A DNA stretch of 64,000 nt from Muribaculaceae bacterium (GTDB taxonomy: Bacteria; Bacteroidota; Bacteroidia; Bacteroidales; Muribaculaceae). Position 1 is the first letter of the stretch. Each line of letters opens with the position of its first letter. Of the stretch, positions 49,526-61,016 are shown piece after piece. The stretch spans positions 1 through 64,000 of the forward strand of contig JAFLTT010000009.1 of the NCBI GenBank assembly GCA_022509165.1, read 5' to 3'. A program made the position numbers and the translations under genes. The notes beneath the pieces are model-generated. The model made no database searches. It worked only from the letters and a program-made list of their open reading frames with translations, and was not told the DNA's origin.

Positions 49526-51445
49526 ATGAAAGAAACTCTTGCTGTCACGGCTCTTAAAGAACAGATGCGTCTTCTTCAGATGGAATATGAAGAGGAAAAG
49601 GAGTTATTTACAAAAATCTCAGAGCAATTCGGTATAGAGAAACTTAAGGCCCGTGGAAATGCATGGTGTGGAATAAAAGTTGGACGTATATATTATAATT
49701 CACTGAATCAGAGAGTAGTGGAAATATTCCGCAATTCTGATGAGGTAGATGATGACCATAATTTTGAACATGGACGTCCTATCTTATTCTTTACCTTGAG
49801 TACAGGTTTTAATTCCGGTTTTATACCTCAATTTCAGGGTGAAGTGAGTTTTGTAGATGAAGACAGAATGGTGGTCGTTATTCCTGAAGATGTGGATTTA
49901 TCAGAGATTTCCATATCACGAAATGCCGGAGTAATGCTTTCATTTGATGAAACAAGTTATCGGGCCATGTTTGAGGCACTTAAGAGCACCATAGAGGCAA
50001 AAGGAAGATTAGGCGAACTTCGAGATATCATATATTCTCCTGATAAGTTTCATGAGTGGTCGCTTCCCTTCATGCGGTTTCCCTATCTCAACAAAGATCA
50101 GGAGAAAGCGGTGAATAAGGTGCTGGCAGCAAAAGACGTGGCAATAGTACACGGTCCTCCGGGCACCGGTAAGACCACAACCTTAGTGGAGGCGATATAC
50201 GAAACTTTAAGGCGGGAACCTCAGGTATTAGTATGTGCACAAAGCAACATGGCGGTAGACTGGATTTCTGAGAAACTGGTAGACCGTGGAGTGAATGTGG
50301 TGAGAATCGGTAACCCCTCTCGGGTGAATGACAAGATGTTGTCTTTCACATACGAACGCCGTTTTGAGAGTCATCCGGATTATCCTGATCTTTGGGGACT
50401 CAGGAAGAGTATCAGGCAATTACATAAAGATAGGGTCCGCACCGATTCCTGGCACCAGAAAATGGATCGGCTTAAAAGCAAAGCCACGGAACTTGAGATA
50501 AGAATCAAGAATAATATTTTCAGCAGTGCCAATGTGATAGCATCTACCTTGGTAGGGAGTGCATCTATGGTGCTGGAAGGAATGAAATTTCCGTCACTTT
50601 TTATCGACGAAACTGCACAGGCTCTTCAAGCAGCCACATGGATACCAATCCGGAAGGCCGGACGTGTGATTTTAGCCGGCGATCATTGTCAATTGCCACC
50701 TGTCGTGAAGTCGTATGCTGCACTTAAAGAAGGTCTGGGAAAGTCGCTTATGGAAACCATTGTAGCTAAACATCCGGAAGCCGTGAAACTTCTAACAACA
50801 CAATACCGGATGCATGCCGAGATCATGAATTTCTCAAGTAAATGGTTCTATAATGATTCCATGAAAGCCGCAAGTGAGGTGAGCCACCGGTCAATTCTGG
50901 ATTTTGATACTCCCATTGAATGGATAGACACTGCCATCCCTAATGATAACACTGACTTGACATTGGAATCGGATAATGCCTTTCAAGAAATTTTCACCGG
51001 CAATTTTGGTAAAGTTAATAAGGATGAGGCATTACTCACACTCTCTGTCCTTCAGAATTATGTGGAAAGTATCGGCATTCACCGCATTTTAGATGAAAGA
51101 ATAGATTTTGGAATTATTTCCCCATATAGGGCTCAGGTGCAATACCTTAGGCAACTGATAAGAACCACACCTTTCTTCAAGCAAATAAGAAAGTTGATAT
51201 CTGTGAATACTGTGGATGGATTTCAGGGTCAGGAAAGAGATGTGATCCTTATTTCCATGGTAAGGAGCAACCGGGAGGGGCAGATAGGCTTTCTCAGAGA
51301 ACTAAGACGCATGAATGTGGCCATGACTCGGGCCAGGATGAAACTTATCATTATAGGTAATGCGTCCACACTCTCTGCTCATCCCTTTTATCGCAACCTG
51401 CATCGATACGTCCGTTCTTTACATAATGATACCGCTGAGGATTGA
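49526..51445 (+). CDS. SF1 AAA helicase, IGHMBP2/DNA2-like
   Basis: VHGPPGTGKTTTLVEAI, SLFIDETAQALQAATWIP, LAGDHCQLPP, VDGFQGQERDVILISMVRSN; likely ATG at 49526 (MKETLAV). Confidence 0.92.
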   Translation: MKETLAVTALKEQMRLLQMEYEEEKELFTKISEQFGIEKLKARGNAWCGIKVGRIYYNSLNQRVVEIFRNSDEVDDDHNFEHGRPILFFTLSTGFNSGFIPQFQGEVSFVDEDRMVVVIPEDVDLSEISISRNAGVMLSFDETSYRAMFEALKSTIEAKGRLGELRDIIYSPDKFHEWSLPFMRFPYLNKDQEKAVNKVLAAKDVAIVHGPPGTGKTTTLVEAIYETLRREPQVLVCAQSNMAVDWISEKLVDRGVNVVRIGNPSRVNDKMLSFTYERRFESHPDYPDLWGLRKSIRQLHKDRVRTDSWHQKMDRLKSKATELEIRIKNNIFSSANVIASTLVGSASMVLEGMKFPSLFIDETAQALQAATWIPIRKAGRVILAGDHCQLPPVVKSYAALKEGLGKSLMETIVAKHPEAVKLLTTQYRMHAEIMNFSSKWFYNDSMKAASEVSHRSILDFDTPIEWIDTAIPNDNTDLTLESDNAFQEIFTGNFGKVNKDEALLTLSVLQNYVESIGIHRILDERIDFGIISPYRAQVQYLRQLIRTTPFFKQIRKLISVNTVDGFQGQERDVILISMVRSNREGQIGFLRELRRMNVAMTRARMKLIIIGNASTLSAHPFYRNLHRYVRSLHNDTAED

Positions 51446-52446: not shown

Positions 52447-53388
52447 ATGGTAAAGAAATTTGAGATAAGAAATAGCACTGCGGAATTCCTGATCTTTCAG
52501 ATTGAGGGGAAAGAAAACGGTGTGCAGGTAATATATAAGGATGAAACCATTTGGTGTACACAAAAAGCCATGGCTGAACTTTTTGATGTTGGTATCCCTG
52601 CCATTAGCAAACATTTGAAGAATATTTTTGATAGCAGAGAGTTGAAAGACACTTCAGTTGTTTCCAAAATGGAAATAACTGCCAGTGATGGGAAAATATA
52701 CAATACATCTTTTTACAATCTTGATGCTATTATCAGTGTGGGATATAGAGTAAATAGCGTGAAAGCTACTCAATTCCGGCAATGGTGCACTTATGTGATT
52801 CGTCAATTTGCCATAAGAGGATATGTCATTGATAAAAAAAGAATGGAAAATGGCTCTTTCATAGGTGAGGATTATTTCGAACATCTTTTGGCAGAGATCC
52901 GTGAAATACGGTTAAGTGAAAGGCGTTTTTATCAGAAACTAACGGATATTTATGCCACTTCCATAGATTATAATAATGATGCACCCACCACGCGACTTTT
53001 TTTCAAGAAAATGCAGAATAAGATGCATTATGCCGTTCATGGTCACACAGCTGCTGAATTAATAGTTGAAAGGGCTGACTCTGAAAAAGAACACATGGGA
53101 TTAACAACATGGGAAAATGCACCTAACGGAAAAATCCTAAAGCCAGATGTAAGTATTGCGAAAAATTACTTGAAAGAAAACGAATTGCAAGATATGGGGC
53201 GCCTTGTCAACGGTGTCTTGGATATTGCCGAAAGAATGGCTCAGCGGCATATCCCTATGACTATGGAAGACTGGGCCAAACGTATTGATATAATACTTGA
53301 GGCAGGAGGGGATAAAGTGCTTGATGATGCCGGGAAAATTACGGCTGAATATGCTTCCTTCATAACCCAGCCGATAAAGATACAATGA
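52447..53388 (+). CDS. RhuM-family (virulence protein/KilA-N-like) protein
   Basis: VIYKDETIWCTQKAMAELFDVGIPAISKHLKNIFDSRELKDTSVVSKMEITASDGKIYNTSFYNLDAIISVGYRVNS. Confidence 0.9.
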   Translation: MVKKFEIRNSTAEFLIFQIEGKENGVQVIYKDETIWCTQKAMAELFDVGIPAISKHLKNIFDSRELKDTSVVSKMEITASDGKIYNTSFYNLDAIISVGYRVNSVKATQFRQWCTYVIRQFAIRGYVIDKKRMENGSFIGEDYFEHLLAEIREIRLSERRFYQKLTDIYATSIDYNNDAPTTRLFFKKMQNKMHYAVHGHTAAELIVERADSEKEHMGLTTWENAPNGKILKPDVSIAKNYLKENELQDMGRLVNGVLDIAERMAQRHIPMTMEDWAKRIDIILEAGGDKVLDDAGKITAEYASFITQPIKIQ

Positions 53389-53672
53389 AAGCAGAACTTC
53401 GGCAAAGGATGTATGAAGATGTGTCGGCCAAGAATGTTCTTATCAATAAATATTTGAAGAAGATTGCAGAGAAAGCGGAAATCAGTAAAACTTTGTCTAT
53501 GCACATCAGCCGACATTCATTTGCATATATTGCTCAGAAATCTGGGGCACAATCTTCAGCCATAAAGAACATATTAGGCCATAGCAATCTTTCCACGACG
53601 GGAAGATACATGGGCAGTTTCGACACCTCTAAGACTGACGAAACATTGCAAATGTCTCTTTTCAAAACCTGA
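53385..53672 (+). pseudogene. C-terminal fragment of tyrosine recombinase
   Basis: MHISRHSFAYIAQKSGAQSSAIKNILGHSNLSTTGRYMGSF: HxxR, GHS and Tyr motifs present; N-terminal domain and first catalytic Arg absent. Confidence 0.82.
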
Positions 53673-53855: not shown

Positions 53856-53887
53856 TTTGTTAAAAGCAATAAATAAATTTAATTTTG
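53856..53887 (+). promoter_or_regulatory. Bacteroidetes-type promoter upstream of the TIGR04255-like gene
   Basis: TTTG ending at 53859, 20-nt spacer, TAATTTTG at 53880-53887. Confidence 0.65.
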
Positions 53888-53913
53888 TGCAGTAATTACT
53901 AATAAAGTCGACT

Positions 53914-54645
53914 ATGACCATAAAACGGATAACACCATGTCCAATATTGGAAGCTACTATTCAAATTAATTGTACTTTCAATGTTGAACAAGATGTCCTT
54001 GTCGGGGTAATCTACTCATTGCTAGGGGGAAATATTCCCCCAAATAACAATAATATAAGTGTAGAGCCGTTACCTATTCTTAACCTCCCTGATGAAATAC
54101 GACGTAATGACCCAAATCTAAGGGACAAACCCTGGTTTAAAATCAATTATAATGGTTTTTTTATTTTAATAGGTATATACGGAGTTTCACTAGGACTGAA
54201 TCCTCCATATAATGGATGGGAAAGTTTTAAGGATTTCTCAGTAATGGTTTTTCATAAACTTCAAGAAAACGTAATTAAGGAGATTTCTGCCATTACTCTT
54301 AGATATTTAGATTTTTTTAAAGAAATCAATATTTTTGAGCATATTAATTGTTCTCTAATATTAAACGAGAAACCAATTAACGGGATTCCAACTGTTATTC
54401 GAACAGAATTGCCTTATGGTAATTTTGTCAATGCTCTTCAAATAACTAACGGAGTTCATGTAAAAAATCTGGCTTTGGGACTTGATAAGGATGGTTCCCT
54501 GATTGAAATGAGTTTATTTACAAAAAAAGTCTCTATTGATAATTTTGAAAATATTATAGAAGAAGCACATACTCTACAGAAGGACTCTTTCTTTAAGCTA
54601 TTAACTAAAGACTTCTTAAATACATTTTCTGTTGATTATGAATAA
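53914..54645 (+). CDS. TIGR04255-family protein
   Basis: PCPILEATIQINCTFN...ITLRYLDFFKEINIFEHIN...LGLDKDGSLIEMSLFTKKV resembles TIGR04255 layout. Confidence 0.7.
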   Translation: MTIKRITPCPILEATIQINCTFNVEQDVLVGVIYSLLGGNIPPNNNNISVEPLPILNLPDEIRRNDPNLRDKPWFKINYNGFFILIGIYGVSLGLNPPYNGWESFKDFSVMVFHKLQENVIKEISAITLRYLDFFKEINIFEHINCSLILNEKPINGIPTVIRTELPYGNFVNALQITNGVHVKNLALGLDKDGSLIEMSLFTKKVSIDNFENIIEEAHTLQKDSFFKLLTKDFLNTFSVDYE

Positions 54646-54979
54646 AAACTATATTTCTTTAAATCTCTTTTTAACGGCATCATTAGTGTTGGATGGTTGC
54701 ACTCTTTCAACATTTAAAAATTATGCGGAAACGGGTGAAGATAAGAAGGAATATTCGTTAAATAAAATGTCGAGAATAAGTCAAAATCAAATCGAAGGAC
54801 AAATTGCATATTCTCAACTTACAGCTATTCAGGATAATTTGCAAATTACCACCAATGTCCCAAGAGATAGCGATTTAGAAGTTTTAAGATCAGTCATTGA
54901 AAAAATACAGATGAGTAAACCCCTATCTCCGGAGTTTGCAGAAGTTATAGAAGAAAATTTTTGGGATTTACTTAGCTAA
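54638..54979 (+). CDS. Hypothetical small protein in TIGR04255 cluster
   Basis: ATG at 54638 overlaps upstream stop by 8 nt; hydrophobic N-terminus with LVLDGC. Confidence 0.65.
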   Translation: MNKNYISLNLFLTASLVLDGCTLSTFKNYAETGEDKKEYSLNKMSRISQNQIEGQIAYSQLTAIQDNLQITTNVPRDSDLEVLRSVIEKIQMSKPLSPEFAEVIEENFWDLLS

Positions 54980-54981
54980 TA

Positions 54982-55587
54982 ATGGATTTATTAGAAGATA
55001 TTAATCTGTATTTGCCCAAATATCTTTCAGCAGATAATTTGGAAGAATTAAAAAAACAACTTCGAGCATGGGGTGAAGGACATGATCCAGGTGAATTTTT
55101 TACAACAAAGTTAAAAAAAGAACCATTTTTATTTCAAGGGGATAGTACCAATGCTTTAATTGGATATTTCCCAGATCCTAAAATACAAGAAGGCAAAGTT
55201 CTACTCTTGTCCAATACTTGTGATATGGATCCGACCAATAAACGTTTGAACCCAAGTAGGGTAATGTATGCACCTATCTTGAACCTGGATAAATATATTG
55301 AATCATTAAAGAAAAATGATGTATCAGAGGAAAAGATAAATAACCATATTCAAGATTTAAAATCTCAAACTATATCTCAAATTTTCTATTTACCTACATA
55401 TCATATATGGGGATATGATAGTATGGTACTTTTCGATAGAGCCATAAGTATCCATTTGAATAGTGACAATGTAAGGACTATGGTTGATACAAGACACTTT
55501 ACCTTAAGTAACTTTGGCTTTTACCTTTTAGTTTTAAAATTGTCTTATCATTTCTCAAGAATCCAAGAGAGAGTAGATAGAGATTAG
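54982..55587 (+). CDS. Hypothetical protein in TIGR04255 cluster
   Basis: Starts 2 nt after upstream stop; NALIGYFPDPKIQEGKVLLLSNTCDMDPTNKR...SQIFYLP. Confidence 0.7.
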   Translation: MDLLEDINLYLPKYLSADNLEELKKQLRAWGEGHDPGEFFTTKLKKEPFLFQGDSTNALIGYFPDPKIQEGKVLLLSNTCDMDPTNKRLNPSRVMYAPILNLDKYIESLKKNDVSEEKINNHIQDLKSQTISQIFYLPTYHIWGYDSMVLFDRAISIHLNSDNVRTMVDTRHFTLSNFGFYLLVLKLSYHFSRIQERVDRD

Positions 55588-56701: not shown

Positions 56702-56828
56702 AAAATTTGTATTTTCTTTGGCTCCTTATATTTAACTGCAACTTACTTTCTTAACGTGTGTTTTTGTAGGTGTGAAAATCGTTCCAAAAACACATACTAT
56801 ACTCTTAAAGCAGATTTTTGCCTCATAA

Positions 56829-56877
56829 TACCTTTGCATCGCAGCTTTGGAAAGAACCAAAACCCAAGGTTGCGATG
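56829..56877 (+). promoter_or_regulatory. TACCTTTG -7 box followed by leader hairpin
   Basis: TACCTTTG (56829-56836); CATCGCAGCTTTGG / CCAAGGTTGCGATG dyad ending 4 nt before ATG 56882. Confidence 0.65.
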
Positions 56878-56881
56878 TATT

Positions 56882-57202
56882 ATGTTTAAAAGTCACAATT
56901 TAAATTCAAATCAGCCGGGAGTCACCACAATGGTGATGATCCCACAAGAGGAGTGGCTCAACCTCCATGAAAAGCTCGACAATATTGTCGAGTTAGTGAC
57001 TAACCGTAATGCCTCCGATAAAGATTCGGAATGGATTGAATCCGACAAGGCTCGTAAAATGCTGGGAATCTCTCCCAAGACATGGCAGAACTATCGAGAC
57101 AGACGGGATATCCCATTCGCCCAAATCGGCAGGAAAATTTATGTCAAACGTGGTGACTTGGAAACTTTCATGGAATCTCATTATATTGATAAACATAAGT
57201 GA
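56882..57202 (+). CDS. Helix-turn-helix (excisionase/MerR-like) DNA-binding protein
   Basis: WIESDKARKMLGISPKTWQNYRDRRDIPFAQIGRKIYVKRGDLETFMESH. Confidence 0.85.
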   Translation: MFKSHNLNSNQPGVTTMVMIPQEEWLNLHEKLDNIVELVTNRNASDKDSEWIESDKARKMLGISPKTWQNYRDRRDIPFAQIGRKIYVKRGDLETFMESHYIDKHK

Positions 57203-58449
57203 TGGAGAGGATTGAAAGTATAAGTCCGATTGAGGAAAATAATAAGGCCTCAATAATAATGGATGAAATCCCTTTCATCAGAATAGGCACCACTTATTAT
57301 AAAGTGGCTTCTCAACCTCAGCCTGATGGCACTACTGTCATTAAACGGCTGAAATGGGATCTCCAAGCTATCAAGTTTGATTATGGGAAACAGTATCCTC
57401 GGAAAATTCCTTGCTTTAATGGATTTTGTACCGTACCCCTTCATAAGGGCTACAAGAGGGAGATAAAAGGCTTCTACAATCTTTACGAACCTATATCCCA
57501 TAAACCCCAAGAGGGTGATTGGGATAAGGTTTCAATATTGATTTCCCATATTTTCGGTGATCAATATGAACTTGGACTTGATTATCTTCATATACTTTAT
57601 CTTTATCCAATTCAAAAATTACCTATTCTTCTATTGGTATCAGAAGAAAGGAACACCGGTAAGACCACATTCCTTAATTTCTTGAAACTTTTATTTGAGG
57701 ATAATGCCACTTTCAATACTAATGATGATTTCAGGAGCAAGTTCAATTCCGACTGGACTGCTAAGCTCCTTATTCTGATAGATGAAGTACTGCTAAATCG
57801 AAGGGAAGATTCAGAAAGGTTAAAGAACTTAAGTACAGCCAAAAGCTATAAGGCGGAGGCTAAAGGTAAGGACAGGGATGAAATCGGATTTTTCGCAAAA
57901 TTCGTTATGTGTTCCAATAATGAAAGGACACCTGTATTGATTGATCCGGGCGAGATAAGATATTGGGTAAGGAAGATTGAACCACTTGAAAACGATGAAA
58001 CTGATTTTCTCAATCAGTTGAAAAATCAGATACCGGCTTTCTTATACCATCTGGATCACCGTAAACTTTCCACTTGCAAAGAGAGCCGAATGTGGTTTCA
58101 TCCCAAGAAAATTTACACTCCATCCTTGACACGGATTATCCGTTCCAATAAAAATAAGGTGGAAGTTGAACTTATAGAACTACTCCGGGATATAATGATT
58201 TCAACGGATTCCGAAAGTATAAGCTATTGTCTAAACGACATCACACAGATGTTTTATTACTCGGATTTCAAGACTGACAAATCAGATGTCCGGAGAGTGG
58301 TTCAGGATATATGGAAATTGTCACCGGCACCCAATGCTCTTTCTTATAAGTGCTGGGAAAGGAATATAACCGACCCTCGAGGATATTCCTATACTAACAA
58401 GACCGGAAGATACTACACTTTCACAAAAACCTTCCTTGATACCCTCTAA
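57202..58449 (+). CDS. Primase-helicase family protein (P-loop, DUF5906-like) of mobilizable element
   Basis: ILLLVSEERNTGKTTFLNFLKLLF, TAKLLILIDEVLLNR, FVMCSNNERTPVLI. Confidence 0.82.
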   Translation: MERIESISPIEENNKASIIMDEIPFIRIGTTYYKVASQPQPDGTTVIKRLKWDLQAIKFDYGKQYPRKIPCFNGFCTVPLHKGYKREIKGFYNLYEPISHKPQEGDWDKVSILISHIFGDQYELGLDYLHILYLYPIQKLPILLLVSEERNTGKTTFLNFLKLLFEDNATFNTNDDFRSKFNSDWTAKLLILIDEVLLNRREDSERLKNLSTAKSYKAEAKGKDRDEIGFFAKFVMCSNNERTPVLIDPGEIRYWVRKIEPLENDETDFLNQLKNQIPAFLYHLDHRKLSTCKESRMWFHPKKIYTPSLTRIIRSNKNKVEVELIELLRDIMISTDSESISYCLNDITQMFYYSDFKTDKSDVRRVVQDIWKLSPAPNALSYKCWERNITDPRGYSYTNKTGRYYTFTKTFLDTL

Positions 58450-59960: not shown

Positions 59961-61016
59961 ATGATGGCGACCGTCAGTAAATCGTCAGACATTTCGCATA
60001 GTCTGACCTATGTACAGAATAAAGAGAAAGATGGTGGAATCCTCTTTGCGAATCTCACCGATTTGTCTGCCACACCTGAAGAACAGGCAAGAGACTGGGA
60101 GGCTCTGTCGAATGACTATAAAACTAAATGTTACAATATTGTAATTTCCTTCACTCCCAACGAAACGCATGCATTAAGGTCTATGTCGGACAATGGTCGT
60201 AACAAAGTCAGCACTCTCATTAAAGAGTTTCTTCAGGATCTTTCAGGCAGAGGCAATGATGTTTCAGAGTGTCCCTTTGTGGTGGCACGTCATGACAATA
60301 CAGATAACGAGCATTATCATATCTGCATATTGGCAACCGATATAAATGGCAATCGCTTTAGTGATTCTTTCATCAATAAGAATGCCACACGTGCAGCTGC
60401 AAAAGTAGCTATGGATAATAATCTTGAAGGAGCAAAGAAAGCGATGGAAAGAGAAAAGGCACATCAGGAAGCAACCGGCAAGAGTAAGAAGGAGAAAAAG
60501 ACTCGTTACCATGCTCCTTCGGATTCACAAGAAAAGATTAATGATAGACTTAGTAGAAAGAGGGCTGTTGAAGAAGCCAAGAAACGCAAGGCCTCACTGG
60601 CGTTCATCATTAATCACGTGGCTCAACAATCTAACAAATATAGTTTCATGGATAATCTTTCTAAAGAAGGTATTACACTCCGGTACGATGAAAAGAAAGG
60701 CTTGGTGGCAGAAATAGTCTACAAGGATAGTAAACCACGTACCTATTCCCTGGTGAAAGACTTGGGTATTGACCCTTCAATACTCCCGGATTTGCCTTCT
60801 CAACCTGTCAAACAAGATACTATTTCCACTAAAGTTAAGACATCTACCCATACCCCCGTATCAACAAAGATAAATTATACTCCGAAATCTTTTATTTCCA
60901 CCGGATTGAATTCAGTTGGTGGCACCGGGGTCAACCGGGAATGGGAGGTCGGAACTAAGAAACGGAGTCCTGATGATCCCGATGAAGAAGTAAAACGTAA
61001 AGGAATGTCATATTAA
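59961..61016 (+). CDS. Relaxase/mobilization nuclease domain protein
   Basis: KCYNIVISFTPNET, FVVARHDNTDNEHYHICI (HxH metal-binding motif), Lys/Glu-rich C-terminus. Confidence 0.88.
   Translation: MMATVSKSSDISHSLTYVQNKEKDGGILFANLTDLSATPEEQARDWEALSNDYKTKCYNIVISFTPNETHALRSMSDNGRNKVSTLIKEFLQDLSGRGNDVSECPFVVARHDNTDNEHYHICILATDINGNRFSDSFINKNATRAAAKVAMDNNLEGAKKAMEREKAHQEATGKSKKEKKTRYHAPSDSQEKINDRLSRKRAVEEAKKRKASLAFIINHVAQQSNKYSFMDNLSKEGITLRYDEKKGLVAEIVYKDSKPRTYSLVKDLGIDPSILPDLPSQPVKQDTISTKVKTSTHTPVSTKINYTPKSFISTGLNSVGGTGVNREWEVGTKKRSPDDPDEEVKRKGMSY

Follow-up and report, generated by a model that had tools for sequence, protein, structure and literature searches.

A likely tripartite toxin-antitoxin module, with a TIGR04255 protein and a divergent MazF-fold toxin candidate, carried as mobile cargo in a Muribaculaceae bacterium

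We propose that a compact three-gene cluster on contig JAFLTT010000009.1 of a Muribaculaceae bacterium (assembly GCA_022509165.1) is a tripartite toxin-antitoxin (TA) module, in which the first protein (A, of the family TIGR04255) would stabilise or control an antitoxin (B) and the third protein (C) would be a divergent MazF-fold toxin. We regard this reading as likely, with a probability of about 0.72. The operon order, its conservation, the fold of C, the antitoxin or toxin nature of the partners in sister operons, the exchange of partners and the mobile location were all obtained by computation. The toxicity of C, its neutralisation by B, the role of A as chaperone or sensor, triggering by phage and phage defence are inferences, and no wet-laboratory data support them. 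Throughout, the window is the whole stretch of 64,000 nucleotides that was analysed.

The three genes lie on the forward strand. Gene A (53914..54645; 243 aa), the proposed antitoxin-stabilising or sensor component, overlaps gene B (54638..54979; 113 aa from its own ATG), the proposed antitoxin, by 8 nt, and a 2-nt gap separates gene B from gene C (54982..55587; 201 aa), the toxin candidate, as read from the open reading frame list and the sequence. A Bacteroidota-type promoter of the pattern TTTG-N20-TAATTTTG (53856..53887, same strand), with TTTG at 53856-53859, the 20-nt spacer and TAATTTTG at 53880-53887, ends 26 nt before the ATG of gene A. The window contains 10 copies of the pattern TTTG-N19-21-TANNTTTG where shuffles predict 1.05, an approximately ten-fold enrichment, and a scan for sigma-70 promoters gave no more matches than chance. 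None of the three proteins had a trusted match in Pfam; among the PADLOC models, A and C matched none and B gave only a chance-level match to Cas6d (14.8 bits). We take A, B and C as real genes because the sequence and order of each are conserved in unrelated genomes, far beyond chance. The earlier note, made from the sequence alone, had described three genes with the same overlap and gap behind a good promoter, the first resembling TIGR04255, the second a 113-aa protein with a hydrophobic start and the third a 201-aa protein with a distinctive core. Each of these points held; the quoted core is present in C, and A scored 81.1 bits against the TIGR04255 cut-off of 30.

Using a profile of gene C built from five sequences, we scanned genomes and viral contigs and recovered 64 genome loci and 25 viral-contig loci, which by record titles came from Bacteroidota, Proteobacteria, Desulfobacteraceae, Verrucomicrobiota, Campylobacteraceae, Spirochaetia and others. 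A TIGR04255 gene was present upstream of gene C in 74 of the 78 loci with enough upstream DNA, in the order A-B-C and with B in between in nearly all. The remaining four loci kept B-C and carried a different gene of ~210-250 aa in the slot of A, one common to loci L026 (2341-3063) and L028 (6904-7641) and another common to L045 (7073-7699) and L091. A comparison of profiles, which were shallow, detected no similarity of these substitutes to TIGR04255; they could be very divergent members of the family or functional analogues. The pairwise distances of the three proteins were correlated (n = 59; r = 0.83 for A-C, 0.74 for A-B and 0.77 for B-C), with permutation maxima of no more than 0.20. Because this correlation includes the shared ancestry of the hosts, it is not proof of contact; it shows inheritance as a unit. 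The type II TA criterion that adjacent, coupled genes be inherited together was met by the 2-nt gap, the presence of B with C across loci and the B-C correlation. The earlier note had named co-occurrence with TIGR04255 as a check, and its absence elsewhere as a refutation; given the 74 loci and the correlated divergence, that refutation did not materialise. At a separate locus, L019 (1024-1821), we observed a C-like 184-aa protein (SHSCDID) without TIGR04255, downstream of a 78-aa open reading frame and a gene that by eye resembles a ClpP/serine-dehydrogenase-like protease.

The cassette lies between the remnant of a tyrosine recombinase and a replication and mobilisation block. The adjoining remnant is a 95-aa C-terminal piece (53385..53672, forward strand; Phage_integrase PF00589, E 2e-11, with only the end of the model covered), and the block on the other side includes an HTH_17 gene (56756-57202), a DUF5906 primase/helicase-like gene (57199..58449, forward strand; PF19263, E 9e-22) and a MobA/VirD2-type relaxase gene (59961..61016, forward strand; PF03432, E 4e-15), the last two belonging to the host mobile element. 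The same place, between an integrase and a DUF5906 gene, is occupied by a separate A-B-C set in a Phocaeicola massiliensis plasmid (OY726032; L023) and in a Candidatus Avimuribaculum contig (L053), and a DUF5906 homologue also lies beside the L034 cassette. The phage copies occupy accessory positions, with a repressor, CII or portal gene as neighbour. Pseudomonas phage Dobby (Peduoviridae) has A-B-C in an accessory stretch adjoining the portal gene, and the A-B-C of Pseudomonas phage VW-6S is flanked by the CI repressor and the integrase. Because the cassette is on a mobilisable element here and has copies in temperate phages, we read it as mobile cargo, placed at sites where such phages keep accessory genes. 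The neighbourhoods in cellular genomes were mixed and not consistently defence islands. Many of the neighbours were ordinary genes and only a few were restriction, ShosA/SoFic or PDC-S01 genes, with no control set for comparison, and a defence-island location in cellular genomes was dropped for this reason. Two other genes of the window were observed in passing. A RhuM-family gene (52447-53388; PF13310, E 1e-99; PADLOC candidate PDC-S05, E 6e-140) lies directly upstream of the recombinase remnant, and positions 49526-51445 encode a lone SF1 helicase of ~639 aa (AAA_11/AAA_12) with a partial match to PADLOC MkoA, probably an ordinary helicase.

Gene C encodes a member of phrog_4575 (E 7e-33), a phage protein family without an assigned function, and carries the motifs QGD, SN(T/S)CD and KLSxHfxR. 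An AlphaFold2 model built from 72 sequences (pLDDT 90) was compared with the PDB by Foldseek, and ranks 1-39 were all of the MazF/PemK/Kid type (MazF, MoxT, YdcE, Kid and relatives), with a best E of 2.3e-4, a probability of 1.00 for the top matches and a target TM of up to 0.72. A profile alignment of C with MazF (hhalign) gave E 2.5e-5 over the core with a probability of 50%, against E 0.6-1.0 for unrelated controls. At the level of sequence, Pfam PemK_toxin (PF02452) was not matched by C at E up to 1, and a search of A and C against PDB chains returned nothing significant. C shares with MazF/PemK/Kid (PF02452) the core fold and the core order of motifs (GD, a hydrophobic strand, an apolar-P strand), and it meets the core-structure criterion of the MazF/PemK superfamily as well as that of a type II toxin fold. 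It differs in having about 80 extra residues, in lacking conservation of the MazF catalytic Arg and Thr, and in its own invariant set. The catalytic positions vary in the 72 sequences (P, K, R or N at position 72; I, F or V at position 100, with T in 1/72), whereas Q52, D54, N78, C80, N86, Q129, P138, K186, S188, H190, R193 and R200 are invariant. This comparison of residues rests on the profile alignment, and no coordinates were used. RNase activity of C is not assured, given that its family does not keep the catalytic Arg and Thr of MazF. We consider C a likely divergent MazF-fold toxin candidate, its fold being predicted by a model and its toxicity inferred.

Across the 72 non-redundant B proteins the median length is 107 aa. 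In 96% of them the most hydrophobic 15-residue stretch lies near the N-terminus, within the first 45 residues, with a median peak of 1.78 against 1.37 in shuffles; the segment is short and only moderately hydrophobic, and a variable linker follows it. The conserved part of B is its C-terminal tail. This tail is acidic, with a median charge of -4.5 over the final 30 residues, and usually finishes in a (F/L)W(D/E)L(L/Y)-like ending, which in the gene B described here reads FWDLLS. By analogy with MazE, this tail is probably the part that would bind the toxin. Pfam recognised no DNA-binding domain in B, the family has no conserved lipobox, and the match of B to the N-terminus of LolB was weak (E 0.001; 18.6 bits against a cut-off of 59.6).

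Protein A matches TIGR04255 (NCBIfam) with E 1e-22, residues 5-238 aligning to positions 1-251 of the 252-position model. Its AlphaFold2 model was confident (pLDDT 95), and Foldseek found no significant match among solved structures in the PDB. The weak best matches were mostly TATA-binding proteins (E 6e-3 at best; query TM 0.25); the topology is suggestive, yet at these values we do not claim a TBP-like fold. SecB was also considered as the fold of A and rejected at the level of sequence, with a profile comparison (hhalign) of E 0.88, no SecB among the 50 best PDB matches and no Pfam match. No DNA-binding family in Pfam matched A. The family is acidic (median pI 5.5; net charge -5.5), which does not favour a DNA-binding repressor and makes such a role for A unlikely. 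The earlier note had called TIGR04255 functionally uncharacterised, and no paper in the open-access literature searched names TIGR04255 or DUF7689. Supplements were outside that search and most subscription journals and preprints were absent from it; because so many journals were missing, the silence may count as evidence of novelty only weakly.

To avoid bias from gene C, we searched TIGR04255 itself in the whole genomes of four groups and found it in 16/299, 30/321, 20/319 and 22/247 genomes, or roughly 5-9%. Among 92 independent TIGR04255 loci, 90% have a gene 2 that starts within 20 nt of the end of A, and in 88% the start of gene 3 lies equally close to gene 2; these figures lean upwards, since the open reading frames were picked by a simple script that allowed starts only from -45 to +160 nt. 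Pfam recognised PIN (4), PemK (3), HEPN (3), HicA (2), YhaV (1) and DUF7689 (3) among 74 third genes, and ~58 matched nothing. The strongest toxin matches were to YhaV (E 7e-46) and PemK (E 2e-13); a single YscO-like match was marginal (E 0.008) and most probably belongs to the HEPN-like protein of L002, which had given the same match earlier. The recognised families of third genes are, with the exception of DUF7689, all known families of TA toxins. HTH domains and an Xre-like antitoxin domain were recognised in some second genes, and PrlF, the antitoxin of YhaV, in one; at L135 the YhaV toxin follows a second gene whose C-terminus resembles PrlF. Sulfurimonas phage SNW-1 encodes TIGR04255 together with a protein of 111 aa and another in which a HEPN-like motif was identified by eye. 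Partner types were clustered on the TIGR04255 tree, with 28 changes for 12 labels against a minimum of 11 and 75 in shuffles, some labels having been assigned by motif or by eye; since the changes recur within this clustering, partners are inherited and occasionally swapped. These operons suggest, as a possibility, that a wide class of such units, in bacteria as well as phages, has TIGR04255 as its common first component. A hydrophobic N-terminus was considered as a general signal of a TIGR04255 client and rejected, as it holds for B of the A-B-C cassettes and not for the second genes of most other TIGR04255 operons (median peak 1.22 against 1.39 when shuffled). Because most other second genes lack one, the segment cannot be the general contact with A.

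Several groups of third genes are recorded here as observations. The commonest appears to be an unclassified family of ~150 aa, with (D)D..(I/V)R(R/H)(I/V)...AF recognised by eye (L133, L144, L145, L157, L161 and similar loci), conceivably a new toxin family. Third genes of 240-270 aa with a WRQG start were seen at L122, L124, L126, L127, L138, L153 and L170; some have an (S/T)H(S/D)CD(I/L)-type motif, and in several cases the preceding second gene contains an HTH. Their profile similarity to C is weak (E 6e-5; probability 36%), and they might form a second MazF-like branch. A third gene of ~220 aa at L123, L125, L151 and L152 resembles C40/NlpC peptidases by eye (GIAIT..HIGILY, GLTC). The third genes of L178, L180 and L181 are, by motif, probably the three DUF7689 matches (best E 1e-40), which points to DUF7689 as a candidate toxin family.

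In the mechanism that we propose, the acidic C-terminal tail of B (FWDLL) would plug C, as MazE tails plug MazF, and the hydrophobic, poorly folding N-terminus of B would make it dependent on A. The TIGR04255 protein would act as an accessory dedicated to B, which it would bind and stabilise like the SecB-like chaperones of TAC systems. Something made or changed during phage infection would occupy or remove A; B would then be lost and C released, halting growth or infection. The proposed stabilisation of B by A is the weakest step: the hydrophobic segment of B fits it, but most other second genes lack such a segment. The proposal of the earlier note that the cluster is a TA system is well supported, by inference, because C is MazF-like and the recognised third genes of sister operons are almost all TA toxins, and its suggestion of mobile cargo is supported by the mobilisable element and the temperate-phage copies. 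A defence function is still inferred only from location and analogy. The suggested toxin/sensor pair was reassigned, with the third gene likely the toxin, the middle gene likely the antitoxin and TIGR04255 a shared accessory component.

The closest comparison is with TAC systems, including CmdTAC. The TAC antitoxin has an aggregation-prone extension that is bound by a SecB-like chaperone and imposes chaperone dependence (PMC5105189). When the chaperone of CmdTAC is drawn off by a phage capsid protein, the antitoxin is degraded and the toxin acts in phage defence (PMC11618068). Both arrangements are three-gene operons with swappable unrelated toxins and a conserved component that is neither toxin nor antitoxin. 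The likeness may extend to antitoxins with extra segments that look prone to aggregation, as in B, although most second genes of other TIGR04255 operons have no hydrophobic N-terminal segment. They differ in that TIGR04255 shows no detectable homology to SecB (PF02556) and comes first in the operon, and in that the hydrophobic segment of B is N-terminal whereas the ChAD is C-terminal (PMC5105189). Among the hyperpromiscuous Panacea (PanA) antitoxins, one conserved family is paired with many unrelated toxin domains (PMC8832971), as TIGR04255 is found with many toxins; Panacea is itself the antitoxin, however, whereas TIGR04255 is a separate third gene. The omega-epsilon-zeta and PaaR-PaaA-ParE systems share the order of accessory gene, antitoxin and toxin. 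The first gene of those systems encodes a small DNA-binding repressor, unlike the acidic TIGR04255 protein of ~245 aa, which has no recognised DNA-binding domain.

This last likeness gives rise to the main rival explanation, in which the cluster is a regulator-antitoxin-toxin operon of the omega-epsilon-zeta or PaaR-PaaA-ParE kind; A would be the DNA-binding autorepressor that B lacks, and B would neutralise C without any involvement of A in its folding. The identical gene order, as generally known for those systems, the absence of a recognisable DNA-binding domain in B and the TATA-binding proteins among the weak matches of A speak for it. Those matches are not significant, however, A is acidic, and several sister operons with an HTH in gene 2 still keep TIGR04255, so that we consider this rival unlikely. 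Less likely still is a membrane or envelope system, such as one of superinfection exclusion, with B as a lipoprotein or inner-membrane effector and C and A as cytosolic partners. The N-terminal hydrophobic segment of B, its weak LolB match and the presence of cassettes in accessory or immunity regions of temperate phages could be read in this way. Against it, the segment is short and moderately hydrophobic, there is no family-wide lipobox, the acidic tail is what is conserved in B, C matches cytosolic MazF toxins, and operons with recognised cytosolic toxins (PIN, YhaV) carry similar second genes.

A further alternative differs from our main reading in role only. The tripartite TA anatomy would be the same, and the module would be an ordinary addiction or plasmid-stability unit that does not act against phage, its mobile location reflecting selfish maintenance. 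We regard this as possible: the architecture is TA-like and occurs on a mobilisable element, on a small plasmid and in prophages, and there are no clear defence islands around the cellular copies. Against it stand the accessory positions of the phage copies, next to repressor, CII or portal genes, and the defence against phage by CmdTAC, a TAC system (PMC11618068).

Returning to the tripartite reading, what is likely new, by inference, is a TA module whose third component has no sequence relationship to SecB and whose MazF-fold toxin conserves an unusual set of residues. A bolder version, which we judge a little more apt to fail than to hold, is that TIGR04255 is a new accessory family, chaperone or phage-sensing and unrelated to SecB, that makes many unrelated TA pairs dependent on it, and that C has a new active site formed from SN(T/S)CD and KLSxHfxR; together these would constitute an independent second lineage of tripartite TA systems that are controlled by a chaperone and triggered by phage. 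If TIGR04255 is a shared part of tripartite TA operons, many of its 'hypothetical' neighbours would gain a testable function and the unclassified third genes would become candidate new toxins. The family would then represent a second solution, unrelated to SecB by sequence, for the control of an antitoxin by a third protein, and would make it possible to test whether toxins came under such control more than once in evolution and whether phages act as its trigger.
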